Virus record (IMG/VR): IMGVR_UViG_3300009285_000401
Span: 1-26,310 of that record
Source of the DNA: a virus
Length of the DNA stretch: 26,310 bases
Strand: one strand, 5' to 3'
Shown here: positions 4,258-24,844 of the stretch, piece by piece
Layout of the letters: every line of letters begins with the position of its first letter
Numbering within the stretch: the stretch's first letter is position 1
The notes under the pieces: model-generated
What the model was told of the DNA's origin: nothing
Database searches by the model: none
Seen by the model: only the letters and a program-made list of their open reading frames with translations
Translations under genes and position numbers: made by a program

Positions 4258-6372
4258 ATGTTAAATATTATTACGTCAAACCAATCAGCAAATATAAACG
4301 AAGAAGGTTTGATTGCTGACATTCAAAAAAAAATCAAATCAGCAGATCCGGTTTTACAGGCTTTTCATAGCCAGTGGTTTCAAAACATAGCAATGCGTCG
4401 AGGCTTGCAGAATGTTCAGATAACAAGCGGACAATCAAACAAGGTTGTTTTAAATCCACCTGAAGTTAAGGGCAGGGTTCGTATTACAATTAATCGCATG
4501 AAGGCTATTCATCAAACAAGATTGGCAAAAATGGTAACTGACATGCCAAAGATGGAAGTGATGCCCGCAAGCGATCAGGAAGAAGATAAAGAACTTGCAA
4601 GAAAAGGAACAAAAATTTTAGCCTATAAATGGCAAGACGAAAGAATGGTTGAGAAGATTACCGATGAATGTTCATGGATGATTGATTGTGGATCGAGTTT
4701 TTTTCATGTTTATTGGGATCCAACAAAAGGCCCTAAAGTTCCAATCTATAAAAGATTTGAAGGAAAAGAAATTAATCCAGAGATTGACAGGGTTGATTCA
4801 GATGGATTTGTTCTTGATGAAACTGGACAGAGAAGAATTGTTGAAGAATCAATCGGGGATGTTGCGATTGATGTTGTCCCGCCTTTTGACATTGTGAACG
4901 ATCAGACAAGTCCGACGGTAGAAGATTCAGGATGGATTATTATTCGCAAGTGCATGAGGGTCAAAGACATTAAAATGATGTGGCCGATAACAGGAAAAGA
5001 TGTTGTTGCGGAAAAAGACACAAGTCAACGAGCATATTTTCAAAGAAGGTTGATGTCAATGGTTGGGGGTGTTTCTGAAGCATATGCAACAGAGGCGATG
5101 ACAGATGAGGAAATGGCGACAATAATTTATTTTTACGAAAAGAAATGTCCTGATTTTCCAGAAGGAAAATTTTTGATTATTTGTGGATCAATTGTTTTAG
5201 AAAGCACAACCATGCCGTTTAATGATGGTGTGACTTTTCCAATTATAAAAACTGATGACACGTTTGTTTCTGGGGCTTTTTGGGGAAATGGCACAAACGA
5301 TGACCTGATCCCAATACAAAAAGGTTACAACAGAACAATATCACAGATTGCAGAAAATGCAAACAATCACGGAAACACAAAACTGCTTGTTCCTCGTGGT
5401 GCAAATCTTGATCCAGATGCTTATGATGATAGTGGAACTGAGTGCATAGAATTTAATTCAGGGTTTCAGCCGACTCAAATGCAACCAGCTTCATTGCCAG
5501 GTCACATGACAGCATTACTAAATTTTTATGATAAAGCTTTTGAAGATGTTTCTGGTCAACACGAAGTGACAAGGGGAGAGGCTCCGTCTGGTGTAAAGTC
5601 TGGAAGGGCCATTATTGCTTTACAGGAAAAAGATGACACGCAAATGGCTCCGACGAAAATAAAATATTTTAGACAACTCGAAAGACTTGGTGTGTTAATT
5701 TTAAGATTGTACGAACAGCATCAGAACGAGGATAGAACTTACAGGTTAATAGGTGAAAACCTGAATGACATTGAAACTTTTAAGATCAGCAAAGCAGAAT
5801 CAATATCAATGAACAAAGATGTGCGTGTCCAAACAGAAAATATAATTGCGTCACACAAGAGAGTAATGCAAGAAAATGCGATGGAAATGTTTGGAGAAGG
5901 ATTGTTTGGAGATCAAGCAGACCCAGAAACAAGAAAAAGAGTTTTGAAGATTATGGAGTTTGGAAATATAAATGAGATTTTTTCAGCCTATAATCAAGAC
6001 TCATTAAATGCCAGAACTGAAAACGAGAATTTTTGTTTATGGACGCCTGATGTTTTAATTCAAAAACAAGACGAAAAAACAGGTGTTTCTATTTGGACAC
6101 AAGAGGCGTTTGTTTTTGACGATCACATTGTTCACTTGAATGAACACAACAGATTTAGAAAGTCCCCACGTTATCATTCGTTTACACAACTACAAAGACG
6201 TGGAATAGACAATCATTGTGAACAACATGAAGTTTTTTTAAAGGGGCCAACACCTCAAGAAGCTCCTCCTGCACAGACCGGACAAGGGGCCATGCCTCCA
6301 TCTCCGATACCTGAACAACCAGCGATGCCAGCTCCAATGCAGGGGCCGGTTCCAATGGTGCCAGCAGGATGA
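4258..6372 (+). CDS. Portal protein (P22-like)
   Basis: The portal is the ring at the capsid vertex through which DNA enters and leaves and to which the tail attaches. At 704 residues it is close to the P22 portal (about 725). The N-terminal part (residues ~75-160: RVRITINRMKAIHQTRLAK, then an ELARKGTKIL helix and CSWMIDCGSSFFHVYWDP) is typical of podoviral portals. The middle carries NRTISQIAENANNHGN and the SGVKSGRAIIALQEKDD segment expected near the tunnel. The last ~42 residues are rich in Pro, Met and Gln and probably disordered. The ATG directly follows the previous stop, with GGGAAAG upstream. The scaffold and coat genes after it support the call. Confidence 0.92.
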   Translation: MLNIITSNQSANINEEGLIADIQKKIKSADPVLQAFHSQWFQNIAMRRGLQNVQITSGQSNKVVLNPPEVKGRVRITINRMKAIHQTRLAKMVTDMPKMEVMPASDQEEDKELARKGTKILAYKWQDERMVEKITDECSWMIDCGSSFFHVYWDPTKGPKVPIYKRFEGKEINPEIDRVDSDGFVLDETGQRRIVEESIGDVAIDVVPPFDIVNDQTSPTVEDSGWIIIRKCMRVKDIKMMWPITGKDVVAEKDTSQRAYFQRRLMSMVGGVSEAYATEAMTDEEMATIIYFYEKKCPDFPEGKFLIICGSIVLESTTMPFNDGVTFPIIKTDDTFVSGAFWGNGTNDDLIPIQKGYNRTISQIAENANNHGNTKLLVPRGANLDPDAYDDSGTECIEFNSGFQPTQMQPASLPGHMTALLNFYDKAFEDVSGQHEVTRGEAPSGVKSGRAIIALQEKDDTQMAPTKIKYFRQLERLGVLILRLYEQHQNEDRTYRLIGENLNDIETFKISKAESISMNKDVRVQTENIIASHKRVMQENAMEMFGEGLFGDQADPETRKRVLKIMEFGNINEIFSAYNQDSLNARTENENFCLWTPDVLIQKQDEKTGVSIWTQEAFVFDDHIVHLNEHNRFRKSPRYHSFTQLQRRGIDNHCEQHEVFLKGPTPQEAPPAQTGQGAMPPSPIPEQPAMPAPMQGPVPMVPAG

Positions 6373-7421: not shown

Positions 7422-8612
7422 ATGACCACAATGGCAGAAATTGCTGATGTGCTTAAACATTTTTATTTAGGCCCAATCAGAGAACAATTAAATAACAAAA
7501 CTGTTTTGCTCGCTAACCTTAAAAAATCTTCAAAAGAAGTGGTTGGCGATCAGGTTGTGCTTCCTTTGAGAAAAGGGCGCAACTGGGGTATTGGTGCTCG
7601 TGGAACTACTGGTACAGGCGTATTGCCGACAGCAGGGAGTCAACAGTACAAAAAGACATACTTTCTTACGAAAGATATGTATGGCCGTATTTCGATTTCA
7701 GGCAAGACAATTCGTGCTACCAAGAGCGACAAGGGTGCTTTCTTGAGGATCGTGCAAACCGAAACAAAGGGTTGTTCCGATGACGTGGCTTCTGACGTAA
7801 ATCGACAGATGTTCATGGACACCACAGGGACATTAACTCTTGCAGGAACAGGCGCAACGTCTGTTACGGTTCCGGTGGCATCAACTCAATACCTTGAAGA
7901 AGGAATGTATGTCGACTTCAATCATGGTGCTGGCGGTTCTTCCACCAACGTTTTGATTGATAGGGTTGATTCTGAGACTCAAATTACAGTTCATGCGGCG
8001 GCCACATGGACAACAGCTGATCCTATTTCGATCACTGGTGTCGCAAGCGGTTCCGAACTGAACGGTTTGAGTTTGATTACAAGCAATACTGGTGCCTTGC
8101 AGAATCTCAATCCTGCGTCTGCTGGTGAAAGCTTCTGGGCTGGTAACGTCTATGGTGACGACACTTCCCCTGCGGCTCTTACCGAAGATCGCATGCAAGA
8201 GATTCAGGACTCGATTGAAGAAAAAGGTGGCAAAGTGAACCTGATTGTTGGTCACTTTTATGCTCGTCGGGCTTATGCTCGATTGCTTACCGCAATGAAA
8301 ATGTTTACACCTCCCCAGGTTGGTAAACTCAAAGGCGGTTTTGATTACCTTGACTTCAACAATGTTCCTGTAACCGTTGATCGTCACAGCCAGAGAACAC
8401 CTACGACAACAAGATTTTACTTCTTGTCTACAGATTCTCTTGGTATTTACCGAATGGCTGATTTCGACTGGATGCAGGAAGATGGTGCTATTCTGGCTCG
8501 TCAAACTGGTGCTTCAGCTACGGAAACGTATGAAGCCACATTGGTTTGCGATATGGAATTTGCAACCGATTGTCGTCGTCATAATGGCGTGTTGAAAGGC
8601 ATTACACCCTGA
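7422..8612 (+). CDS. Major capsid protein (HK97 fold expected)
   Basis: The 396-residue protein has a strong ribosome-binding site (AAAGGTAGG), uses better-distributed codons than its neighbours, and is followed by a strong hairpin, all typical of the most abundant virion protein. Residues 1-130 include DVLKHFYLGPIREQL and LRKGRNWGIGARG, then DMYGRISISGKTIRATKSD, as in many environmental podovirus coat proteins. Residues ~135-206 form a beta-rich insert (VDSETQITVHAAATWTTA) resembling small domains in three tail genes of this window. The C-terminal part (GGKVNLIVGHFYARRAYARL, FNNVPVTVDRH) looks like the HK97 A-domain and its return. No N-terminal pre-sequence for protease cleavage is obvious. 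Confidence 0.92.
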   Translation: MTTMAEIADVLKHFYLGPIREQLNNKTVLLANLKKSSKEVVGDQVVLPLRKGRNWGIGARGTTGTGVLPTAGSQQYKKTYFLTKDMYGRISISGKTIRATKSDKGAFLRIVQTETKGCSDDVASDVNRQMFMDTTGTLTLAGTGATSVTVPVASTQYLEEGMYVDFNHGAGGSSTNVLIDRVDSETQITVHAAATWTTADPISITGVASGSELNGLSLITSNTGALQNLNPASAGESFWAGNVYGDDTSPAALTEDRMQEIQDSIEEKGGKVNLIVGHFYARRAYARLLTAMKMFTPPQVGKLKGGFDYLDFNNVPVTVDRHSQRTPTTTRFYFLSTDSLGIYRMADFDWMQEDGAILARQTGASATETYEATLVCDMEFATDCRRHNGVLKGITP

Positions 8613-12788: not shown

Positions 12789-13072
12789 TGGACGAACTTA
12801 ATCTTGCAGAAAACATTGGAGTCATAAAGACAGATCTTAAATACATCAGAGAGGACAATGTTGAAATTAAGTCTGGAATTAAGGCCATGTGGAACAGGTT
12901 CGACGAGTTCAGGTCTGCCAATGACGATGAACACAGAACGCTTAAGGACGAGTTTGAGGACAAGATTCAGACCATTAATAAGAAGGTTTATTACTTATTT
13001 GGAACGCTAGGTGGTGTTGGACTTATAGCCACATTGATTAATATAATTGATGATGTTTTCATTAAAAAATGA
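12788..13072 (+). CDS. XhlA-like coiled-coil membrane protein
   Basis: The 94-residue protein has a charged, heptad-like N-terminal ~60 residues (NIGVIKTDLKYIREDNVEI) and one membrane segment at about residues 67-86, ending in a short basic tail. This layout matches XhlA-type holin-associated proteins of Gram-positive phages and similar anchors elsewhere. AAGGTGG lies upstream, and ATG 12788 shares a base with the previous stop. An in-frame GTG at 12779 is less likely. The gene sits inside the tail module, over 11 kb from the endolysin, so a membrane or tail-anchoring role is as possible as lysis. Confidence 0.75.
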   Translation: MDELNLAENIGVIKTDLKYIREDNVEIKSGIKAMWNRFDEFRSANDDEHRTLKDEFEDKIQTINKKVYYLFGTLGGVGLIATLINIIDDVFIKK

Positions 13073-15195
13073 AACAAAGAAACTTCGAGCCGATCTTTAA
13101 CGGTGTTCTTGGCGTTAAGCAGGGCGTTGCTCTGACTAATATGCCAATCGGCTCGCTGATTGATTCTCAAAACATGTATCTTGATAATCGTGGCGGCAAG
13201 TACATGCGCCCAGGTTATTCAAAGTTATTTTCACTTCCAATCAATCAAGAAACAAGACAGCTTCACGAATATAAAAGAATGTCTGGAACACAGCTAATAA
13301 TGGCTTATGCCCATGACACAATTTATCAATGGAATGGTGCGGCTGTTACTTCTGTCAAAGGATCATGTGCGCTTGATACTGATTGGCAATTTATTAATTA
13401 TAATGACAGGTGTCTTGGTGTAAATGGTGCTGATTTGTTTGATTACAACGGGACGAACTATTACGAGATTGGTGTTTCTCCTCCAACTGCACACGTTGCA
13501 TTGACAGTTGCGGCGAATCCGGCATCTACGCTTGACGGACATTATTCTTATTTGGTTACGTTTTATGACCAGAATAGAACGGCAGAAAGCAACCCGTTCT
13601 CATACGCAACCGCCTTGTCTGCCGATGCAGGCCCAATAAACACAAATCAGATTGTTCTTGGCCCTTTTCCTGTTTATGCCACAGGAGAATTTGCGACCCA
13701 CTATCGTGTTTATAGAAAATGGATTGAGAACAATGCTGGAATATTGCAAGAAACAGTTTATACTCGTGTTGCCGAACTTGTTTATGCGACTTATGTTGGA
13801 AACACATATGCAGACACGGGGCTTTTAACTGGAGACATAGAGATTGTTTACGACAATGGTCAGCTAGATACAGGAAATACCACACCTCCAAACTCAAGAA
13901 TCATAGTTGAAATGTGGGACAGGGTTTTTATGGTTTCTGAGACAGATGCTACCATGCTTATTTATTCTGTTGCAGGAAGAACACACGCTTTTCCTTCTGC
14001 AAATTATTTCCCGATAGGCAAAAAAGACGGAGAAAGAATTTTACGAGTAGAGAAAAATGGGTCAACTTTATTGATTCATAAAAAGAACAGTGTTTATGTT
14101 TTGGAAGGTGATCCAAATACAAACACACCGAGAAGGCTTAATGGCAGGGGAACAGCAAATAAATACACGTCATGTGCAGACATTGATGGGAATGTTTATC
14201 GTCTGGCTCAAGATGGGTTTTATGCCCTTAATCCAACTGATTATAGTTCAAATGATTTGAGGGATACCTATATTGGAAATGATGTTGCCACAGAAGAATC
14301 TGAAATAACTTGGAGTTCGTCCGATTATATCAGGATGGTTGGATATACAAAACAATCACAGACGCTTGTGTATGCGTTTTTCCCGAACACGTCAGATGTA
14401 TCAACAAAGGTTTTGTCTTATGACGTAACGACAGGCCAGTGGATGATTCATTACGTTGGAACTGATGTTTATTCAATAACATCAATTGAGAACCAAACAA
14501 CAAAAGAAAAGCGCATTATTTTTGGTGATGGTTATGGAATTGTGTGGCAATGGGATGATGGTTACTCTGACGGTGCTTCTGGTGGCCCTGATGATCTAAA
14601 TGGAAACGCAACGAACATTACAGGTGCAGTTCTTACAGATTCCACAAGAGGCGTTTCAACCCCAGCATGGACAGTAAACGCTTTGATCGGTTGTGTCATT
14701 GAACTGCTGACAGGATCGGCAGGACATCAAAGACGACGCATTGCGTCAAACACTGCAAACACTATTACTACGACATCTTCTTGGGCTGGTTCACCTTCTG
14801 TTGGGGCTGAATATGCGATTGCGGCAATAGATCATTGGGCAGATGAGTTTTGGAACGCGGAAAAACTTGAAAACAGGTGGAAGCGCATGAGGTGGGTTGT
14901 TCCTTATATTCGTCAAATTGGTGACTATACGATTGACGTGTCATGGAGAAGGGATTTTGCTTCTGGATTTGACCATGCCCAAACCGTCTCTCTTTCGGCT
15001 TCTTCTTCTTTGTGGGGATCAATGCTTTGGGGCGTAGCTCTTTGGGGATCGTCCACGTCAAACCTTAGACGGCTTAGATTCTCTGGTAAATACCATTTTT
15101 ATTCGATACGTTACAGATCACAGAAAGCGGCACAACCTATTTATTGGGATGGCCACGGGGCTGTCTTTCAGGTTTTGCAAGACAGGAACAAATAA
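13069..15195 (+). CDS. Tail nozzle / hub protein candidate (P22 gp10-like)
   Basis: The 708-residue protein opens with a segment (residues 31-53, DSQNMYLDNRGGKYMRPGYS) typical of podoviral proteins closing the tail after the adaptor. The body repeats short blades (HDTIYQWNG; DRCLGVNGADLFDYNGTNYY; GNVYRLAQDGFYALNP; GYGIVWQWDDGY) as in a beta-propeller. Residues ~510-588 carry the small beta domain (IGCVIELLTGSAGHQRRRIA, then ITTTSSWAGSPSVGAEYAI) shared with other virion genes here. The C-terminal ~120 residues are Trp-rich and beta-rich (WGSMLWGVALWGS). The start overlaps the XhlA-like stop as ATGA. The P22 gp10 assignment is inferred from architecture. Confidence 0.78.
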   Translation: MKQRNFEPIFNGVLGVKQGVALTNMPIGSLIDSQNMYLDNRGGKYMRPGYSKLFSLPINQETRQLHEYKRMSGTQLIMAYAHDTIYQWNGAAVTSVKGSCALDTDWQFINYNDRCLGVNGADLFDYNGTNYYEIGVSPPTAHVALTVAANPASTLDGHYSYLVTFYDQNRTAESNPFSYATALSADAGPINTNQIVLGPFPVYATGEFATHYRVYRKWIENNAGILQETVYTRVAELVYATYVGNTYADTGLLTGDIEIVYDNGQLDTGNTTPPNSRIIVEMWDRVFMVSETDATMLIYSVAGRTHAFPSANYFPIGKKDGERILRVEKNGSTLLIHKKNSVYVLEGDPNTNTPRRLNGRGTANKYTSCADIDGNVYRLAQDGFYALNPTDYSSNDLRDTYIGNDVATEESEITWSSSDYIRMVGYTKQSQTLVYAFFPNTSDVSTKVLSYDVTTGQWMIHYVGTDVYSITSIENQTTKEKRIIFGDGYGIVWQWDDGYSDGASGGPDDLNGNATNITGAVLTDSTRGVSTPAWTVNALIGCVIELLTGSAGHQRRRIASNTANTITTTSSWAGSPSVGAEYAIAAIDHWADEFWNAEKLENRWKRMRWVVPYIRQIGDYTIDVSWRRDFASGFDHAQTVSLSASSSLWGSMLWGVALWGSSTSNLRRLRFSGKYHFYSIRYRSQKAAQPIYWDGHGAVFQVLQDRNK

Positions 15196-16283
15196 TGTCT
15201 ATACCTATAAAACCATTTACTTTTTCAAATGGAACGTCGGCAGATGCCATTGAGGTCAATGCTGATTATGATGCACTGTATAGTTGGGCCGCAGGAAACG
15301 TTGAATCCGACAATATTAAGTCAGCATCTATTTATGACAGTGACATTAATTGGGGGACTGGATCGAATCAAATTAGTGCTGTAGACCTTCCTGTTGCCGA
15401 CGCAGGATCATTTTTTACAGGAACCAATACAGAGACAGCATTGCAAGAGATCGGGGCAGGAATGGTGCCTGTAGGCTCTATAATCCCGTTTTATGATCTT
15501 GGTGGCCTATGCACCTTTACAGCGGCAAACTGGGAATATTGTAATGGGGCGGCTGTTGTTTCGGCAACCAGCCCGATTGTTGGGCAGACAAAGCCAGACT
15601 TGTCAGGACGCTATTTGGTAGGCTTTTCGGCGGCAGGGACAGAAGGTGGCGGCGACATCGGAACAGAGCCATGGGCAACACCAGCGGTTGGGAATACAAC
15701 CCATCAAGTTAATTTGACCCACACCCACACAATTTCGCATAACCACACTCTTTCTGCTCATACGCACGCTGGGCCGAGTCACTCTCATACTGGGCCAAGC
15801 CACACCCATACGACAGACATTGCTTCTTTTACTTCAGGGGCAGGAACAGCGCACGATCACTCAGGCCCTAGCCATACACATTCTTTTTCAGATTCGTTCT
15901 CAATTTCTAGCTCTGGAAACCATATTCACTCATCTGATGCTGGTGCTTCTGGTGGCTGGATCGAATCAAGTTCGCCAGGTCGTTACACCGATGCGGCAGA
16001 CGGTGACCACACACACACAGGAAGTGTTTCAGGAACAACAGGGGCCGGAGGAACTGGAAACACCGGAACTGAGAACGCTCACACCCATGCTGTTAATCCG
16101 CCAAGCACCACCAGCGCGGCGGCAGGGACAGGGGCCACAGGTCCAAGCGGAACTGACGCCACAGGTGTGCCTTCAACAGACCAGACAGGCACAGACGCAA
16201 CAGCAAGCACTTCGGCCCTGTCTGCCACTCAATCAATTCAGCCAAGATCAATCAGAGTTCGCTACATAATGAGGGTTCTTTAA
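15195..16283 (+). CDS. Tail-collar-domain fibre with His-rich stalk
   Basis: The 362-residue protein starts in a TAATG overlap with the nozzle candidate. Residues ~1-90 attach it (KPFTFSNGTSADAIEVNADY). Residues ~93-150 look like a phage tail collar domain (VGSIIPFYDLGG, WEYCNGAAV, PDLSGRYLVGF). From ~170 to 300 it has about ten HxH pairs (HTH, HNH, HSH, HDH, HIH) in Ser/Thr/Gly-rich sequence, then a Gly/Ala/Thr-rich stretch and a short basic end (IRVRYIMRVL). HxH pairs in fibre shafts can bind metal in trimers. It is probably a short tail fibre or tip involved in host contact. An in-frame ATG at 15144 lies inside the nozzle gene and is rejected. Confidence 0.82.
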   Translation: MSIPIKPFTFSNGTSADAIEVNADYDALYSWAAGNVESDNIKSASIYDSDINWGTGSNQISAVDLPVADAGSFFTGTNTETALQEIGAGMVPVGSIIPFYDLGGLCTFTAANWEYCNGAAVVSATSPIVGQTKPDLSGRYLVGFSAAGTEGGGDIGTEPWATPAVGNTTHQVNLTHTHTISHNHTLSAHTHAGPSHSHTGPSHTHTTDIASFTSGAGTAHDHSGPSHTHSFSDSFSISSSGNHIHSSDAGASGGWIESSSPGRYTDAADGDHTHTGSVSGTTGAGGTGNTGTENAHTHAVNPPSTTSAAAGTGATGPSGTDATGVPSTDQTGTDATASTSALSATQSIQPRSIRVRYIMRVL

Positions 16284-16537
16284 TGATAAAAGCCATGATA
16301 CCAAAAGAAGGCGACATTCCTGATAGCTACGTTATAACAGTGACTTATGTCACAGGAAAAAAAGAGTCGTTTGATACCGCTCATCATAGGTTTGTCAACG
16401 AGTCTGGTTTTTTTGAGATTGCAACAAAAGATGATTTGTGGATTTTATTGCCAACTTCAAATATAATGAAGCTCGAATTTGACAGAAGTTTTTCAAAGAT
16501 TGTAACCGAAGGAAACAAGCCTAAGGGAAATGCCTAA
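16283..16537 (+). CDS. Small hypothetical protein
   Basis: The 84-residue protein looks like a compact mostly-beta fold (YVITVTYVTGKKESFDTAHH, then LWILLPTSNIMKLEF). It starts in a TAATG overlap with the fibre gene and ends in a TAATG overlap with the acetyltransferase, so the three are probably co-translated. The pattern of strands resembles small modules on fibre-associated proteins, but I do not recognise a family. Confidence 0.75.
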   Translation: MIKAMIPKEGDIPDSYVITVTYVTGKKESFDTAHHRFVNESGFFEIATKDDLWILLPTSNIMKLEFDRSFSKIVTEGNKPKGNA

Positions 16538-17085
16538 TGCTTAAAAAAGCAGGATATACGTATCTCAGATTATTTGAACCTTGTTATATTGAACAGGCAA
16601 AAGAATGGTATTACGACACTGAAAATGCAACATTTTTTTATGAATTTGGAATGATGTCTAATGACGATTTTGCAAGTTTTGTCAAAATGTCAAATGGCAT
16701 GGCGTTTACGATTCACGATGACAGATTTGATACAAAAATCCCTATTGGGATGGTCATGGTACATGATCTAAAATGGAAGGCAAAAGTAGCCAGTGTTGGA
16801 ATTATGATCGAAAAGGAATACAGGGGGCAGGGCCATTGCAAAAATGCTATTTTTATTGTTTGTGATTACTTGATAAACGAACTGGGGATTGAAAAACTTG
16901 TGTTTGAAACGATTGGAACAAACCAGCGGGTTGATGAAATTTTATCAGCAGACATTAAACCAGAGGCATGTCTTTACAACGAGGCAATTTTTCAGGGTAG
17001 GCGTGTGAATGTTGTAAGATATTCAGTGTTTAAAGATGAAGCGTCAAAAATGATTGATGCCTTCTTCAAGAAGAAAAGAGGTTGA
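16537..17085 (+). CDS. GNAT-family N-acetyltransferase
   Basis: This 182-residue protein should transfer acetyl from acetyl-CoA to an amine. The acetyl-CoA-binding motif A is clear at residues ~87-108 (VGIMIEKEYRGQGHCKNAIF), with the loop R96-G-Q-G-H100 and the following helix. A strand before it (IPIGMVMVHD) and the IEKLVFET strand after it fit the fold. The substrate is unknown. GNAT genes are common in phage tail regions and may modify a virion or host protein; that is inference. Codon use is like the neighbours, so no recent capture is evident. Confidence 0.88.
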   Translation: MLKKAGYTYLRLFEPCYIEQAKEWYYDTENATFFYEFGMMSNDDFASFVKMSNGMAFTIHDDRFDTKIPIGMVMVHDLKWKAKVASVGIMIEKEYRGQGHCKNAIFIVCDYLINELGIEKLVFETIGTNQRVDEILSADIKPEACLYNEAIFQGRRVNVVRYSVFKDEASKMIDAFFKKKRG

Positions 17086-17585: not shown

Positions 17586-18935
17586 ATGGTAGCACCAACA
17601 AACACTTTTGGCAAATATGGACAGCCTCCAGCAATGGGGGCCGGTGGCCTTCAATACGATCCGGCAAGTGGCAAGTGGTATAATGCGGCAACGGGTCAAG
17701 AAGTCTCAAATCCTGAAAACCCTACTTGGTCACCAGACATGCAAGGATTGTACCAAAGCTCACAGGCAGGGCTTGATAAGTATTATGGATCACTCCCTGG
17801 CGAAGCCGATCAGCTCACAGGTCTTGGCAAAAAGATTGAAGAAGCAGGAACGTATAAGGGTTATAATTGGAATATTCCACAAGACTATGAGCTTCCCGAT
17901 TATCAGAAGTTTGGTGGCTACGATAAACTTGCGATGGAGAGAACTGATTTTACCACTCCTCAAATAGACGCATTGAAAGACGTGTCACCAATCGCCGAAG
18001 GCATTTACGGCGGACAAATGGCAAAGTCAAACGAGGCCATTGGTGGCAAATACAAAAGCCTAAAGTCTCAAGTGGACGAAGAAACAAGGCGAAACATGGC
18101 TAGGCCAGAGCAGGCGGCGGCATTGCTTTCAAGCCTTGGGGTTGAAGAAGCAAAAGCCAAAACAGAGGCAGGACGAGACATTCAGTTTGAACAAGCACAG
18201 CAACAACTTGATCTTGAAAAGAAAGCTCAAGAACTTGGTTTGCAACGATCAACATCACAGGCGGGAATTGAACAGACCGGACAACAAATGACTGCATCAG
18301 AACGACAGGCGGCGGCTGACTATGCTAGACAAGTGGCCGAACTACAAGGCGGAGAAGGAAGATATGGATACGAGCAAGATGTTGCCAAGAAACAGTATGG
18401 AACAGGCATGGAAACTTGGTTGCAAGAACAACAGGCCGCAGAAGCAGAAAAAGAATACCAATCCAAATATGGGCAGGCGCAAGACCTAACTTCTTTGCAG
18501 GCTCAAGAATGGGAATCTAATCAGGCTTCAAAGTACGATCTTGCAAACGCTCTTTTGCAAGGGCAACAGGCTCAGACTGGATTAACATCACAAGCTGGAA
18601 CGTACATGACAAATCTTCCAGAGGACATTCAAAAAGACGTTTTGAAATCACAACCAATTCAGCCTGCTTATAATCCTCAGAGCTACGCAACAACAGCAAC
18701 AAAACCTCAGACACAGATAAAATACTCGATGCCAGGACAGACGACAACACAGCAAACAAATAAATACTCAATGCCGTCACAGCAAAAACAAGCGACAACG
18801 CAAGGACAAGCAGAACAAGGCTTTGCTAACGCAGAACAAGGCTTTGCTAACGCATCAAAACAAGCAATAGCAAGCCAAGGGAAATACAAACAACCTCAAG
18901 CGACATCGCAGAAAAGGGGGGCAACATGGGCTTAG
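17586..18935 (+). CDS. Gln-rich internal virion (ejection) protein candidate
   Basis: The 449-residue protein follows an AAAGGAG ribosome-binding site. Residues ~1-110 are Gly/Tyr-rich (LQYDPASGKWYNAATGQEV). Residues ~140-340 are long helix and probable coiled coil, dense in Gln, Ala and Glu (EEAKAKTEAGRDIQFEQAQQ). Residues ~345-449 are low-complexity Gln/Thr/Ser with a KYSMP motif twice and a duplicated AEQGFAN. Helical Gln/Ala-rich proteins at this point in podoviral genomes are typically carried inside the capsid and ejected with the DNA. It overlaps the next gene by 10 bases. Confidence 0.78.
   Translation: MVAPTNTFGKYGQPPAMGAGGLQYDPASGKWYNAATGQEVSNPENPTWSPDMQGLYQSSQAGLDKYYGSLPGEADQLTGLGKKIEEAGTYKGYNWNIPQDYELPDYQKFGGYDKLAMERTDFTTPQIDALKDVSPIAEGIYGGQMAKSNEAIGGKYKSLKSQVDEETRRNMARPEQAAALLSSLGVEEAKAKTEAGRDIQFEQAQQQLDLEKKAQELGLQRSTSQAGIEQTGQQMTASERQAAADYARQVAELQGGEGRYGYEQDVAKKQYGTGMETWLQEQQAAEAEKEYQSKYGQAQDLTSLQAQEWESNQASKYDLANALLQGQQAQTGLTSQAGTYMTNLPEDIQKDVLKSQPIQPAYNPQSYATTATKPQTQIKYSMPGQTTTQQTNKYSMPSQQKQATTQGQAEQGFANAEQGFANASKQAIASQGKYKQPQATSQKRGATWA
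18810..18851 (+). repeat. Perfect 21-bp tandem duplication in the Gln-rich gene
   Basis: Bases 18810-18830 and 18831-18851 are identical, encoding AEQGFAN twice in frame. Perfect identity suggests a recent event. Confidence 0.95.
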
Positions 18936-19318
18936 GACGTAAAGCTATCGGAGCGGCTCTTTTGGGGCTTGGTGCCGGTGGAAAATATATTGGAGACATC
19001 AAACAAAAACAGATTGAGTCTGAACTGTTCCCAGAGTCAACCGCAGACATAAAAGACTACAACAAACTTCTTACACTAAAACCTGAAGAACGATCCTTGT
19101 TTATTTCTTCTAAGGCGGCAGGAAAGGCGATGTATGATCCTGCAAGCGATACTGTAAAACAAGTTTTTAAACCGTCAACAGGCAACAAATCTAAAAGTGA
19201 AACAAGCCTAGATTACAAAAAAAGGATGGGAGAAGTCGGAAGAAAATTGAGAAACAAAGAGCCGGTTACAAACAAAGAAGTAAATGAATATTCTGTTTAC
19301 AGTGAAGAAAACTTTTAA
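18926..19318 (+). CDS. Small Gly/Ala-helix protein, ejection-module candidate
   Basis: The 130-residue protein starts inside the previous gene, with an AAAAGGGGGG ribosome-binding site nearby. Residues 1-23 form a Gly/Ala-rich, weakly hydrophobic helix (GRKAIGAALLGLGAGGKYIG) with positive residues; the rest is charged and helical. It lies between the Gln-rich internal protein and the giant polyvalent protein, so a role in the ejection complex is likely from context only. Confidence 0.75.
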   Translation: MGLGRKAIGAALLGLGAGGKYIGDIKQKQIESELFPESTADIKDYNKLLTLKPEERSLFISSKAAGKAMYDPASDTVKQVFKPSTGNKSKSETSLDYKKRMGEVGRKLRNKEPVTNKEVNEYSVYSEENF

Positions 19319-19340: not shown

Positions 19341-22300
19341 GTGGCATCTCAAAACGATACAAATAACGATTATTATCAATATGGATCGAACCCTGAGCTT
19401 GAAAAGAGACTTGGTGTTAAGTCTGATAAAGAGAAAAGAAAAACAATTGAGATTGAAAAGAAAAATGAACAAGGTCAGATGTATCAATATGGATCGAACC
19501 CTGAGCTTGAAAAGAGACTTGGTGTTAATAAAGAGGTAGAACAGAAACAACCATCAATCATAGGCAAAGCAATCACAAAGTCAAAAGAATGGTTTAAAAA
19601 ACCAGAAGAAAAAAACGAATCAGACCAGTATGAAGAAATAAAAGAAATGCAGAAAAGAATGGTGCCTCAACCATTTGGGCTTGTGAGGGCATCACCTTCT
19701 GGATCGGCCACACCACCAATCCCAAAAAAGCTGTCGGCGGAAGAAGAAAAAAAAGCAAACACTTCTTTGTTAAATAAATTATATCCTGAAAAGGGGGTTC
19801 CATACAAAGATGTTCACCCTGGTGGTGCCGAAGGTTTTACAAAACTTATTTCTGATAAACTAATAAAGAACGAGGATACTCCACGAAAGAGATTGGCGTC
19901 AGGAATGTTAAAAGGTTTTGGACAAGAAATTGATGAATTTACAACACCCAAAGCCTTGGAAGGATTGGCAACCCAGACGGTAATGCTTGGGCAACTAGCT
20001 CCATATTTCTTTGGCCCAATGATGGCTAGTTCCGCCACAAAAAACATCACAGAGGGAATAATTGATGTTAGCCAAGGGAAAGAAAAAGAAGGTGGAGAAA
20101 AGATTGGGAGAGGAACCCTTGTTGCTGGGCTTCTTGCAGGTGGTGGAAAAGCAAAGGCAAAGATAGAACAAAGAATGGGCAGTGGGAAAAAGATTGGAGA
20201 ACCATTCTACGAAACACCTACTGAAAAATACTATGAAACATTGCCACAAGGAACGTCTCAGGCTCCGACAATAGAGCCAACAGGGTTTAAACTTCCACAA
20301 GAAAAGATTGCAGAAATCCCTGTCAGTGAACCGGTGGCAGGTGATGGCAAATTTGGAATTACCAAACAGCAAGGGCCACAAGAACCCCCAATGTTCAAAA
20401 TGCCAAAGACAAGAAGGGCGAAGCCGCCGATAGTGCGACCAGAGCCAAGTCCTATCTTACCAATTACACAGCCATTACAGAAAGAGCCGTTGTTAAAAAA
20501 GAAAGTAAAACCACAAAAGCCACAAAAGCCACAAAAGGCTTATTCGCTTGTGAATTTTATTAGAGACTCTGGCGGACTTTGGGACCCATATTTTAATTCT
20601 GAAATAAAAAGGTTTGGAGATATTAAAGAAGGAGGAATGAATCTAAAGAACAAAAAAACAGGGTCTAGTTTAGACAGAATGAGAATGATGGCAAACGAAA
20701 ATGATTATGGCCCATATGAAACAACATCAGATTTTATCGAAGCAATAAGACAAGACACAACCGCAATAAAACAAGGAGAACACGGAAAGAGGCTTGTTGC
20801 GCCAGAACAATCTGGAGAATTTTACAACCAACTATACGAAGATAATTTGAAAGAACAAGGAAGATTGTATGAGGAAAACAAACACACAATTCCGGTCACG
20901 CTTACAACCGGCAATCTTAACCTAGCCAAAGGAGATAAAGTAAAGGTTGAAGGAGAATGGTTAAAGGTTAAAGAAAGTACAGACGAAAGACTTGTTTTGA
21001 AAGACGGAAAAGAGATTGAGGTTGATTCTGTGTTTGGCCAAATTCCAGTAGAAGGCGGAGAAGAATTTGGTATTAAAAGAACGAAACAACCAACAGAACA
21101 GCCACTAAGTATTGACGAGTTTTCAAGACAGGCACAGACAGAAGCCAAAAGGCAGAAAGACATCTTGCTTGCACAACAAGGTATGGAAAGGTTGCAAAAG
21201 CCGAGGCCAGAGCAAAAGCCTGTGGATGAAGGATTGTTTGAAGAAGGGCAGGACGAACTGTTTTCTGGTATTTCTGGTGAAATTGCCGCAAATTTACCTA
21301 AACGCGATCAAGAAATGCACTTGACACCGGCACCAGATTACAAGTCTCAAAAGCCAATTGGAGCATACGACGTTGTTCAAGAAATTGCCAAGATTTGGAA
21401 TACACCTGTAAGGCTTAGCAAGTTCAGAACACACACAAAAACGGGTTATAGGTCTGGTATTTATAAACCTAAATCAGAAGTAATAAGGATTGACGTTGCA
21501 AACGACATACCAACGGCGGCGCATGAGATAGGTCACTGGTTCGATTATTCAACACCAGTAAAGCAAATGCGTAGTAGAAAATTTGCCTTTGAATTAATGC
21601 CACTTGATTATAATAAAAAACGGGCAGATTCAGGAGAAGGCTTTGCAGAATTTATCAGGCTTTATCTTACAAACAACAATGTTGCAAAACAGGTAGCACC
21701 ACGATTTTATGATGCTTTCAACAGCTTCCTATCCGACCAACCACACCTTAAAGACATGATGACAAGATCGAAAGACCTTGTAGAATTGTGGAACAAGCAA
21801 GGGGCCGAAAATAGGATGAAGGGGCAAATGGCTTCGCTTGGAGAAAAGCCGAGAAAGTCTTATTTGACAACACCACAAAGACTCAAACTACAACTTCGAT
21901 CTGCCTTTACAGATACTTTTGCTGTTCTTGATTTTGCCACAAAACAAATGGTTGGAGAGCGAAAGATTGCACCGGCAAAAGACCCTTATAAGCTTGCTCT
22001 TTATTCTCTTGGATCAAGCGCAAGATCGAGGGCAAACCTTCTTTTTGATTCTGTTGACTTTGCTGGTAGACGAACAGGTGACTCATTAAAAACAGTTCTT
22101 AGCCAAATAAAAGATGCAGATTTTGAGAACTTTTTAAATTTTGCTTACTCAAAGATTGCTGTTGAAAGGCTTAAACAAGGCAGGAATCCAGGCATTGGAA
22201 TTGATGAAGCCAAGTTTGTTTACGACAAATACAAAGACTTTCCTTTTTTTGAGGATACAGCGACAGCATGGGCAGGGTGGTATGATCGCCTTTTGGATTA

Positions 22301-24458
22301 TACGTTTCAAGCCGCAAACATTGACAAGGTTACACTTGATAAAATCAGAGGATCAACATCTTATTATTTGCCATTGACGAGATTGATTGACGATTCAATT
22401 GGCTCACTAGGTGGCTCCAGAAAATCTTTCCTCATGCCAGGGCAGGCGGTCAAAAGAATGTCTAAAACCGGTAGTGGTCGCAAGGTTAAAGACTTTATTC
22501 AGCAGGCAATCAACATGAGCGAACGCATGGTTGCAGTAGCAGACAAAACGAGGGTTGGAAATGCTTTGGTTGATTTGGCAATGGATTCACCAAAAGGAAA
22601 GTGGTGGATTAGAGAGATTGCTACGCCAATGGAGGCTCATAAGGTTACGATTGGCAAATTACAAGACGTCTTAGCAAAAGACATGAAGGAAATCTTTGAT
22701 CTTGAAACTGATCGGCCTGTTGGGAAACCAAGCAAAGAAGAACTTGAATCGTTAAAGGAAGAATTTGATGAGTCAGGAAAAGAAGGCAAAAGTGAATTGA
22801 AAGATGAGTTTAGAGAAGAACTCGACCAAGTTGTTACATACTTTTCAAATGCAATCAAATACAAGGGTGGCGAACCGATTATAACACAGACAAGAAATGG
22901 AAAAACAAAGTTTTATGAGGTTGATCCAACACTTTATGAAGCCATGCATGGCATGGACACAGTTGAATTAAAAGGAATGATGAAGTTTGTGGATGCCATT
23001 GGGAACATTCCTAAACAAGTCGTTGTCCTTGGGGCCACAGGATTGAGAGCTTCATTCACAATAATGAATGCAATGCGTGACGCATTGATGTCCGTTATAA
23101 CATCCCAGAAGCAGGGCATTGGTGCTGTTGGACGACACGCCAAGGCGTATGGAGATATTGCCAGAAGATCAGAAGCATACAAGCAATGGCGTGCGACTGG
23201 TGGTGAAATGTTCAATCAAGTACGCGAAGATCAGAAACAACTTAATTCAATCATGGGCGAATTAAGATCAAATACGAAGGCTCAGAAGGCTTTGAACATT
23301 ATCAAAAACCCACTAGATTTTTACAAGTCTCTTGTGTCTGTTAGTGAAAGCGCAACAAGGGTAGGAGAATTTAAGTTGATAAGGGATAGGATGGAAAAAG
23401 AAGGAAAATGGACTGCCGAAGATATTGCTGTTGAATCCTCCGTGGGTGCATCGGATGTCACTTTAAATTTTAAACGTGCTGGCTATGTTATGAAGTGGCT
23501 TAATCGTTACGTCCCTTTTCTTAATCCTTGGACACAGGGCTGGTCAAAAACATATAGAACTTTCACAGGAAAGAACTGGAAACAAAGCGCGGCGGCTGGA
23601 TTCAAATATATTACACTTCCGGCAATAGCTCTTTATTTGTTAAACAGAAAAGACAAAGACTATGATGAACAGCCATGGTGGAGAAAAACAGGTTTTTTGT
23701 CTTTCAAATTATCACCTGAAGGAACTCGGTTTAACATTCCACTTCCTCAAGATGCTATTGGTTTTATGTTTGCTTCTTTTCCAACAGCCTTGCTCGAATC
23801 AATTGACAAACAAGACAGGACATATCTTGATGAAGTTTCAAAACAATGGTTTAGAAATAGCGTTTTGCCGCCTTATATGTTTGCCTTTGCCGCACCAGTA
23901 ATGGAGTGGTGGGCCAACAAATCAATATTTACAGGTAGACCGATTGAAAATCTTGGCCAACAACGATTAATGCCAGAGTACAGAACAAACGAATGGACAG
24001 ACCCACTAATCGAGGAAATTGGAATGGGTCTTGGTATAAGTCCGGCCAAATTAAATCAGGCATTACGAACAGCGACGGGCGGCCTCGGAACAGACATAAC
24101 AAACATGTCAAAATACTTCATGACAGATAAAACAGTAACGGCTGAAAGGCCAAAAGAAAAGGCTGATATTCCTGTCGTTGGTAGATTTTTTGAAAGAAAA
24201 AACAAAGCTGGAAGGTCTATTGATGATTACTTTGACAAGTATAAGCAACAAGAGATGGTTCATGATACAGCTATGTCGGAATTTAAAAAGACAAAATCGT
24301 ATGAAGAAAGACAGAAAATTGCTGACAAATATGGTTATGACAAACACGAATACAAAAAACTGAAGAAATATTACGATGGCATAATAGATGCTTTACGTAA
24401 AAAAGATTTTCAAACAGCAACAGATTTGGCACGAAAAGCATTAGGCAAAGAAGAATGA
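19341..24458 (+). CDS. Giant polyvalent ejected protein with zinc metallopeptidase and LPD38-like domain
   Basis: The 1705-residue product is by far the longest in the window. GTG 19341 has AAGAG upstream; an internal ATG at 19479 with AAGGTC is an alternative. In order it has a duplicated YQYGSNPELEKRLGV motif (to residue ~63), a Pro/Lys-rich linker with a PQK triplet (391-399), and a small beta segment (~515-570). A metallopeptidase-like domain (~673-800) has HEIGHWFDY with H728, E729 and H732, plus E766 and E770 as third-ligand candidates. Long helical stretches follow. Residues ~1373-1600 (NRYVPFLNPWTQGWSKTYRT, LYLLNRKDKDY) resemble the large polyvalent-protein-associated domain LPD38. 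Polyvalent proteins are packed in virions and enter the host with the DNA. Confidence 0.85.
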   Translation: MASQNDTNNDYYQYGSNPELEKRLGVKSDKEKRKTIEIEKKNEQGQMYQYGSNPELEKRLGVNKEVEQKQPSIIGKAITKSKEWFKKPEEKNESDQYEEIKEMQKRMVPQPFGLVRASPSGSATPPIPKKLSAEEEKKANTSLLNKLYPEKGVPYKDVHPGGAEGFTKLISDKLIKNEDTPRKRLASGMLKGFGQEIDEFTTPKALEGLATQTVMLGQLAPYFFGPMMASSATKNITEGIIDVSQGKEKEGGEKIGRGTLVAGLLAGGGKAKAKIEQRMGSGKKIGEPFYETPTEKYYETLPQGTSQAPTIEPTGFKLPQEKIAEIPVSEPVAGDGKFGITKQQGPQEPPMFKMPKTRRAKPPIVRPEPSPILPITQPLQKEPLLKKKVKPQKPQKPQKAYSLVNFIRDSGGLWDPYFNSEIKRFGDIKEGGMNLKNKKTGSSLDRMRMMANENDYGPYETTSDFIEAIRQDTTAIKQGEHGKRLVAPEQSGEFYNQLYEDNLKEQGRLYEENKHTIPVTLTTGNLNLAKGDKVKVEGEWLKVKESTDERLVLKDGKEIEVDSVFGQIPVEGGEEFGIKRTKQPTEQPLSIDEFSRQAQTEAKRQKDILLAQQGMERLQKPRPEQKPVDEGLFEEGQDELFSGISGEIAANLPKRDQEMHLTPAPDYKSQKPIGAYDVVQEIAKIWNTPVRLSKFRTHTKTGYRSGIYKPKSEVIRIDVANDIPTAAHEIGHWFDYSTPVKQMRSRKFAFELMPLDYNKKRADSGEGFAEFIRLYLTNNNVAKQVAPRFYDAFNSFLSDQPHLKDMMTRSKDLVELWNKQGAENRMKGQMASLGEKPRKSYLTTPQRLKLQLRSAFTDTFAVLDFATKQMVGERKIAPAKDPYKLALYSLGSSARSRANLLFDSVDFAGRRTGDSLKTVLSQIKDADFENFLNFAYSKIAVERLKQGRNPGIGIDEAKFVYDKYKDFPFFEDTATAWAGWYDRLLDYTFQAANIDKVTLDKIRGSTSYYLPLTRLIDDSIGSLGGSRKSFLMPGQAVKRMSKTGSGRKVKDFIQQAINMSERMVAVADKTRVGNALVDLAMDSPKGKWWIREIATPMEAHKVTIGKLQDVLAKDMKEIFDLETDRPVGKPSKEELESLKEEFDESGKEGKSELKDEFREELDQVVTYFSNAIKYKGGEPIITQTRNGKTKFYEVDPTLYEAMHGMDTVELKGMMKFVDAIGNIPKQVVVLGATGLRASFTIMNAMRDALMSVITSQKQGIGAVGRHAKAYGDIARRSEAYKQWRATGGEMFNQVREDQKQLNSIMGELRSNTKAQKALNIIKNPLDFYKSLVSVSESATRVGEFKLIRDRMEKEGKWTAEDIAVESSVGASDVTLNFKRAGYVMKWLNRYVPFLNPWTQGWSKTYRTFTGKNWKQSAAAGFKYITLPAIALYLLNRKDKDYDEQPWWRKTGFLSFKLSPEGTRFNIPLPQDAIGFMFASFPTALLESIDKQDRTYLDEVSKQWFRNSVLPPYMFAFAAPVMEWWANKSIFTGRPIENLGQQRLMPEYRTNEWTDPLIEEIGMGLGISPAKLNQALRTATGGLGTDITNMSKYFMTDKTVTAERPKEKADIPVVGRFFERKNKAGRSIDDYFDKYKQQEMVHDTAMSEFKKTKSYEERQKIADKYGYDKHEYKKLKKYYDGIIDALRKKDFQTATDLARKALGKEE
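19374..19420 (+). repeat. 47-bp perfect direct repeat, copy 1
   Basis: These 47 bases recur without a mismatch at 19482-19528, exactly 108 bases (36 codons) further on, so both are read in the same frame. They encode the same YQYGSNPELEKRLGV segment near the N-terminus of the polyvalent protein. Confidence 0.95.
19482..19528 (+). repeat. 47-bp perfect direct repeat, copy 2
   Basis: This is identical to 19374-19420. It begins three bases after an in-frame ATG (19479) with AAGGTC upstream, so an alternative start could yield a protein with one motif copy. Confidence 0.95.
20511..20537 (+). repeat. Three perfect 9-bp coding repeats (PQK)
   Basis: CCACAAAAG occurs three times head to tail, encoding PQKPQKPQK in the linker before the middle region of the polyvalent protein. 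It is probably an extended, flexible hinge. Confidence 0.9.
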
Positions 24459-24844
24459 CACAGGTCACCAAACATTTTAGGATCGAGGAATTTGATTGCA
24501 AGGATGGTTCTTCATATCCAGAAAGCTGGGTTGAAGCTAGGCTACAGCCACTGGCCGAAGCCCTTGAGGTTGTGAGAAAACAGACGGGAACAAGCATCAG
24601 GGTTTTGTCTGGATATAGAACCCCAGAACACAACAAAGAGGTTGGTGGCGCCAAGGATTCGATGCACCTAAGAGGTGTGGCCGCAGACATAAAGGCCGGA
24701 GCAGTAAAACCACACGATCTTTATCAGCTAATTGAGACGCTCATAAAGAGAAAAAAGATTCCAGATGGGGGCCTCGGTCTTTATCCTGGGTTTGTTCATT
24801 ACGACCTAAGAACGTTGTTTGGCAGAGAGCCAACAAGGTGGTAA
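24455..24844 (+). CDS. Endolysin, M15-family peptidase
   Basis: The 129-residue single-domain enzyme has the M15 zinc signature: SGYRTPEHN (residues 52-60), SMHLRGVAAD with H71 and D78, and GLYPGFVHYDLR with H115. These residues bind zinc in the family, which cuts peptide cross-links of peptidoglycan. There is no signal peptide or membrane segment, so it should need a holin to reach the wall. The small size and lack of a wall-binding domain suit a phage of a Gram-negative host, though not exclusively. The start overlaps the polyvalent gene as ATGA, and a holin candidate follows. Confidence 0.93.
   Translation: MTQVTKHFRIEEFDCKDGSSYPESWVEARLQPLAEALEVVRKQTGTSIRVLSGYRTPEHNKEVGGAKDSMHLRGVAADIKAGAVKPHDLYQLIETLIKRKKIPDGGLGLYPGFVHYDLRTLFGREPTRW

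Follow-up and report, generated by a model that had tools for sequence, protein, structure and literature searches.

The phage polyvalent class of proteins was named by Iyer et al. 2017 (PMC5512222), together with the domain LPD38, which they describe as of the phage type only. MPTases are the commonest domain of these proteins, and the same authors already proposed that they release cargo by processing their own chain or, alternatively, cut host proteins (PMC5512222). P1 DdrB provides a precedent for MPTase self-processing and is cut before packaging, while the virion RNA polymerase (vRNAP) of N4, which has an MPTase-type domain yet is packaged unprocessed, counts against cargo release in cis (PMC5512222). 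Another described group is that of the DarB-like LPD38 proteins, found in Bcep22-like phages (JC1 gp69, PMC9144972) and in Vibrio, Shewanella and Thalassomonas phages (VvAW1, X14 and BA3). Mass spectrometry of JC1 virions purified on CsCl yielded 51 unique peptides of gp69 (PMC9144972).

Here we describe a protein of 1705 aa encoded in a linear IMG/VR virus sequence of 26,310 bases, the whole of which is called the window below. We conclude that it is a further member of the class of Iyer et al. 2017, as it combines LPD38 and a zincin-type metallopeptidase with an ejection-protein position in the operon; its placement among polyvalent proteins by a first-pass annotation is thereby upheld. Like the MPTase polyvalents of that survey (PMC5512222), it is a giant late-gene phage protein with LPD38 and variable N-terminal domains, and its zincin likewise consists of three strands, an HExxH helix and a Glu helix. 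Unlike them, it contains only one recognisable enzyme domain, and the C-terminal unit of its family extends over ~800 aa, compared to 189 aa in the LPD38 model. With the DarB-like proteins it shares the C-terminal order C1-C2-LPD38 (C1 and C2 being the conserved blocks listed below), a zincin-type motif upstream of it, and a position as the last virion gene ahead of the lysis or tailspike genes, whereas those proteins are 2600-4500 aa long and hold methylase/helicase cargo (in JC1 also a transglycosylase). The N4 vRNAP, described as ejected, has the same layout of cargo, zincin and C-terminal domain, and a profile comparison of its MPTase with the window family (hhalign probability 0.9%, a single sequence representing N4) picked up 16 residues at the HExxH helix and nothing significant outside them.

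The giant gene and its genomic setting

Upstream of the giant gene, and on its strand, lie genes for a terminase, a portal, a scaffold, a major head protein and a virion structural protein, a location among late virion genes as in the polyvalent proteins of Iyer et al. 2017. The surrounding features are as follows.

4258-6372, same strand as the giant gene: portal, P22/SU10-like, by similarity
7422-8612, same strand as the giant gene: major head protein, phrog_14242, by similarity
13069..15195, + strand: virion structural protein, phrog_3287, by family match
16537..17085, + strand: GNAT acetyltransferase, an upstream neighbour of the giant gene
17586..18935, + strand: 449-aa Gln/Ala-rich protein at the place of an internal virion (ejection) protein, judged by position only
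18926..19318, + strand: 130-aa protein with a hydrophobic Gly/Ala-rich N-terminus (from its sequence), immediately upstream of the giant gene
19341..24458, + strand: giant ORF, phage polyvalent / ejection-type protein, GTG start, 1705 aa, 0 internal stops
24455..24844, + strand: M15 peptidase endolysin, by family match, overlapping the stop of the giant gene

The order seen in the window, from structural proteins through the acetyltransferase and the internal-virion-protein-like genes to the giant protein, recurs in the annotations of Pelagibacter phage HTVC034P and Manatee podovirus, where acetyltransferase-annotated genes likewise stand ahead of those for internal virion proteins. The giant protein of Burkholderia phage JC1 comes after two virion-associated proteins and before the lysis genes. 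These comparisons support the conclusion that the giant gene belongs with the ejection proteins in a late operon of podovirus-like type. A family search with the 130-aa upstream neighbour gave no match.

No nucleotide-level relative of the record was present among 50,697 phage records, which makes this a deeply divergent podovirus-like phage, and a search of IMG/VR for exact peptides of the 1705-aa protein returned 0 matches, so that this collection contains no near relative. Further upstream, a 379-aa ORF (15144-16283) contains a long His-Thr repeat run (THTHTISHNHTLSAHTHAGPSHSHTGPSHTHT), in which it resembles proteins that bind metal or form trimeric tail tips; the first ATG of this ORF is internal to the reading frame.

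The zincin module and the C-terminal unit behind it

The motifs in which candidate ligands had been picked out at first pass, HEIGHWFDY (aa 728-736) and EGFAE, were borne out by comparison with relatives: the ORF proved exact and the motif residues are invariant across a diverse family. The module and its motifs are located as follows.

21351..21929, + strand: zincin metallopeptidase module of the lethal factor / PPEP type fold (aa 671-863), from profiles, an AlphaFold model and a fold search
21522..21536, + strand: HEIGH catalytic motif (aa 728-732), from the alignment
21636..21650, + strand: EGFAE motif (aa 766-770), from the alignment

In a tblastn search against phages, podophages of Vibrio, Shewanella and Thalassomonas matched from aa 677 on at ~24% identity, and the pattern AHExxHxxD ... 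EGFAEFxRLxLTN was kept in all five aligned proteins. Scans of IMG/VR and GTDB genomes with two motif baits (EGFAEF and the AHE pattern) added 91 further loci, and an iterated profile brought the family to 97 proteins with the peptidase module, reduced to a non-redundant set of 64 (both counts including the window). These 64 modules are diverse, at about 25-30% identity, and nonetheless share ten invariant residues (H728, E729, H732, E766, G767, A769, E770, R716, G706 and P787). This invariance does not stem from the choice of baits, since each bait-only subset carries the other motif: HExxH/HExxxH was present in 36/36 members retrieved solely via EGFAEF, and EGxAE in 16/16 retrieved solely via the AHE pattern. 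When EGFAE is aligned with the FAE motif of lethal factor and its family, E770 emerges as the likely third zinc ligand. Two members (L026 and L051, with modules at aa 558-759 and aa 593-794 of their ORFs) replace HExxH with HExxxH (HEAVGH and HEVIGH) while retaining EGFAEF, and such rare variants are also known from the MPTases of Iyer et al. 2017 (PMC5512222). As in the widespread phage MPTase clade of that survey, an Asp follows three residues past HExxH (D735, common to 34/64 modules); unlike in that clade, there is no conserved His at the end of strand 2, none being found ahead of HExxH among columns at least 60% conserved in the 64 modules.

A PDB sequence search with the single 1705-aa protein gave no match and an NCBIfam search nothing meaningful, but the family profile matched lethal factor and PPEP structures in the PDB (best E 5e-4). 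Pfam ATLF was matched by 13/65 members, the module of the window itself giving no match at E 0.01. The check by structure prediction proposed at first pass did not overturn the first reading and yielded a model of a zincin: in the AlphaFold (AF2) model the core is predicted with a pLDDT of mostly 93-98, and the top matches in both Foldseek and VIA-align (aa 661-803) were lethal factor (Z 8.7 over 140 residues, rmsd 5.8) and PPEP-1 (Z 8.2 over 123 residues, rmsd 3.4), on a VIA-align scale where unrelated rows start near Z 6. Taken together, the alignment and the predicted model place HExxH and a next-helix Glu on a three-strand/two-helix core, supporting the presence of a zincin-type metallopeptidase domain in the giant protein. 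The anthrax lethal factor catalytic domain and the Pro-Pro endopeptidases (M34, ATLF) share with it the fold and the HExxH and FAE motifs, and this likeness extends over 120-140 residues; however, identity is ~20% and the window protein is without secretion or cell-binding parts, so that we regard them as distant fold relatives only. The predicted fold is nearest to protein-cutting enzymes, yet a common fold proves no function.

Directly behind the peptidase follows a conserved C-terminal unit, termed the carrier here.

21972..22673, + strand: conserved carrier block C1 (aa 878-1111), from a profile
22878..23654, + strand: conserved carrier block C2 (aa 1180-1438), from a profile
23652..24176, + strand: Pfam LPD38 (PF18857; aa 1438-1612), E 9.6e-24

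The LPD38-like C-terminal region had been recognised at first pass, and the match to PF18857 scores 84.9 bits against a curated cut-off of 27; over aa 1-1437 Pfam gave no match. Residues 800-1370, previously described as without a nameable domain, largely resolve into the blocks at aa 878-1111 and 1180-1438, which are conserved in about 97 proteins. The order peptidase, C1, C2, LPD38 is that of every complete member, with a gap of only 8-51 aa (median 15) between peptidase and C1 in 63/63 non-redundant members, and a free-standing peptidase without carrier was never seen among the retrieved proteins. The length behind the peptidase is near-constant (785-1035 aa, sd 55), whereas the length ahead of it lies anywhere between tens of residues and 2611 aa (sd 648), the shortest values probably reflecting short or fragmentary ORFs.

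A model of the 841 C-terminal residues shows one predicted fold (pLDDT 86, pTM 0.84), and in BFVD it aligns with numerous viral LPD proteins across >850 columns, with E down to 3.5e-30. The second of the AlphaFold predictions was built without rows from annotated phage records. Searches of the PDB with the C-terminal model found nothing significant, the best hits reaching E 0.2 in Foldseek and, on a C-terminal hairpin of helices, Z 5.4 in VIA, a result that does not establish a new fold. C1-C2-LPD38 forms a module of ~800 residues common to many phage proteins, and since it is conserved as a single confident predicted fold, the 189-aa Pfam LPD38 is one piece, the tail, of a far larger unit without a significant solved-structure match in the searches run. 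JC1 gp69 carries the same three parts (E 5e-13, 7e-30 and 2e-10 with profiles built here), and its detection in virions gives the strongest indication that proteins of the carrier family travel in the virion, which extends to the window protein by analogy only. In Pelagibacter phage HTVC010P (KC465898, locus L105, 8001-10111), an LPD38-type protein is annotated as several short ORFs and matches in three pieces, which may be due to frameshifts or sequencing errors.

The N-terminal part, the linker and the peptidase slot

The region ahead of the peptidase (aa 1-610) is disordered in part and has two small domains by prediction and 0 named domains. It contains or is followed by these features.

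19374..19418, + strand: 45-nt direct repeat, copy 1, encoding YQYGSNPELEKRLGV (aa 12-26), 45/45 nt identical
19482..19526, + strand: 45-nt direct repeat, copy 2, encoding YQYGSNPELEKRLGV (aa 48-62), 45/45 nt identical
20544..20876, + strand: helical segment (SLVNFIRDSGG...; aa 402-512), from the model
20937..21020, + strand: small predicted beta-barrel, SH3-like (aa 533-560), from the model and alignment
21171..21350, + strand: flexible linker ahead of the peptidase (aa 611-670), Pro-rich at the equivalent site across the family

The two repeat copies match even at silent sites; they may have arisen by recent duplication, or may form a motif for packing or binding. A Pro/Lys-rich stretch lies around aa 300-400. 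No relatives of the helical segment (aa 402-512) were found, and aa 394-613 had no relative in phage records at E 1. The predicted beta-barrel, common to five relatives (L014, L046, L053, L061 and L066), falls within residues 515-570, for which the first-pass annotation could name no domain. The N-terminal 640 aa contain no recognisable enzyme, leaving the cargo of the window protein unnamed; one enzyme, the peptidase, is recognised in the whole chain, searches of Pfam and NCBIfam adding no other, while relatives do combine activities, with domains for a DNA methylase, a helicase/SNF2 or an inorganic pyrophosphatase in their N-terminal parts.

Across 61 members, the 60 aa preceding the peptidase hold 10.7% Pro, compared to 6.7% in the remaining N-terminal part (Wilcoxon p 4e-8, an optimistic value as the sequences are related), and hydrophobics are depleted there. 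Relatives without the peptidase show no Pro-rich linker before C1 (6.8 vs 6.2% Pro, p 0.8). No degenerate peptidase was found in the peptidase-less relatives. One group of relatives, of 1170-1280 aa, consists of a domain X fused directly to the carrier, with neither methylase nor zincin motif; relative L018 contains domain X, a DNA methylase, the peptidase and the carrier.

The LPD38 proteins of phages 1.232.O, phiARM81mr, CF418P1, PTXU04 and JC1 (L102, L103, L104, L010 and L223) have zincin-like motifs upstream of the carrier (HELVVH, HEVLAH, HEVVGH, HEIIVH and HEAFH, respectively). By motif match only, the motif is placed ~200-230 aa before C1 in 1.232.O, phiARM81mr, PTXU04 and JC1 gp69, and farther from it in CF418P1; the HEAFH motif of JC1 gp69 gave no match to the window peptidase profile. 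Raw median cargo size is 766 aa with a window-type peptidase, 1696 with another motif and 443 with none, and in some members that carry the peptidase the N-terminal part measures no more than 270-470 aa. A link between zincin presence and cargo size is not claimed, since it is not significant after allowing for relatedness, which leaves 5-6 independent pairs.

Proposed role of the peptidase

The giant protein is built of three parts, a variable N-terminal part (aa 1-610, with the linker at ~aa 611-670), the zincin (aa 671-863) and the ~800-residue carrier. We suggest that it is a late product that is most likely incorporated into the head and leaves it along with the DNA at ejection. Virion presence of JC1 gp69 and a gene order matching that of ejection-protein blocks support this. 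The carrier may pack and/or translocate the giant protein, a packing role being uncertain since in DarB of phage P1 the packing signal is N-terminal, with the first 30 residues targeting the capsid (PMC9024508). The zincin may cut its own chain in cis, at the Pro-rich linker that precedes it or close by, either as the particle matures or once the protein has been ejected, and the N-terminal part would thereby be freed from the carrier. That the zincin of this combined cargo, protease and carrier cuts mainly in cis is a proposal to which we give about an even chance, and cargo release is the likeliest of the roles considered, with a host-directed effector as its main rival. Besides the N4 vRNAP, the short N-terminal parts of some peptidase-bearing members, the non-significant link to cargo size and the lack of a recognisable enzyme in the N-terminal 640 aa of the window protein weigh against it.

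If the peptidase is instead the payload, delivered by the carrier to cut proteins of the host once ejected, whether in defence, in the envelope or in regulation, the resemblance to lethal factor and PPEP, which act in trans on other proteins, and the lack of a second recognisable enzyme in the window protein would be expected, and Iyer et al. allow effector roles for some MPTases (PMC5512222). We consider this doubtful: the peptidase is joined to the carrier in every complete member and never free in the retrieved set, the linker lies on the cargo side and not between peptidase and carrier, and many members have other enzymes (methylase, helicase or pyrophosphatase) upstream. Cargo release in cis is favoured over a free effector because the peptidase is locked to the C-terminal module, behind the Pro-rich linker. 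It is further supported by the presence of the peptidase in the methylase-bearing L018 and the lack of both in relatives made of domain X and carrier, as well as by the different HExxxH/HExxH motifs held by large relatives in the equivalent slot. The emphasis of the first-pass annotation on host, defence or peptidoglycan targets therefore fits less well than cargo release, a host-protein target being possible but unsupported, and the undescribed host-takeover function it foresaw gives way to a role already proposed for such domains (Iyer et al. 2017, PMC5512222). What it had observed is confirmed, and its interpretation partly supported.

Action inside the prohead, on the protein itself or on scaffold/capsid proteins, appears unlikely. 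In its favour, cleavage of P1 DdrB precedes packaging (PMC5512222), and the window, whose capsid genes include a scaffold-like ORF, yielded no dedicated prohead protease; on the other hand, same-carrier relatives without zincin assemble (Pelagibacter and Bacillus phages), and 1705 aa is an improbable size for a dedicated maturation protease. Help in the passage of the complex or DNA through the envelope, by trimming ejection or envelope proteins in the manner of the lytic domains that other ejection proteins have, would suit the ejection-protein position of the gene, and published polyvalent proteins bear wall-cutting domains (an SLT domain in JC1 gp69). This too we think quite unlikely, as zincins of the lethal-factor/PPEP fold cut protein chains and not peptidoglycan cross-links, the usual wall cutters are M15 and SLT enzymes (a separate M15 endolysin adjoins the giant gene), and close C-module relatives exist without any zincin. 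A dead, structural zincin, for which the domain retained uncut in N4 vRNAP (PMC5512222) is a parallel, is very improbable given that the catalytic residues are all invariant across 64 diverse modules.

Cargo release in cis would amount to a natural delivery-and-release design, where a single injected chain could serve several cell locations once the protease frees its front part. For giant injected phage proteins, whose working order is mostly obscure, we offer a layout of constant carrier, fixed protease, Pro-rich linker and swappable front. Added here to the proposal of Iyer et al. 2017 are the fixed peptidase-carrier unit, the linker and the extent of the carrier fold, together with the suggestion that other zincins have refilled the peptidase slot. 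It is conceivable, though we put it forward tentatively, that the carrier is a general protein-delivery module of phages and the slot preceding it a cargo-release site refilled several times by unrelated zincins; if so, any N-terminal cargo could be packed, ejected and cut free.
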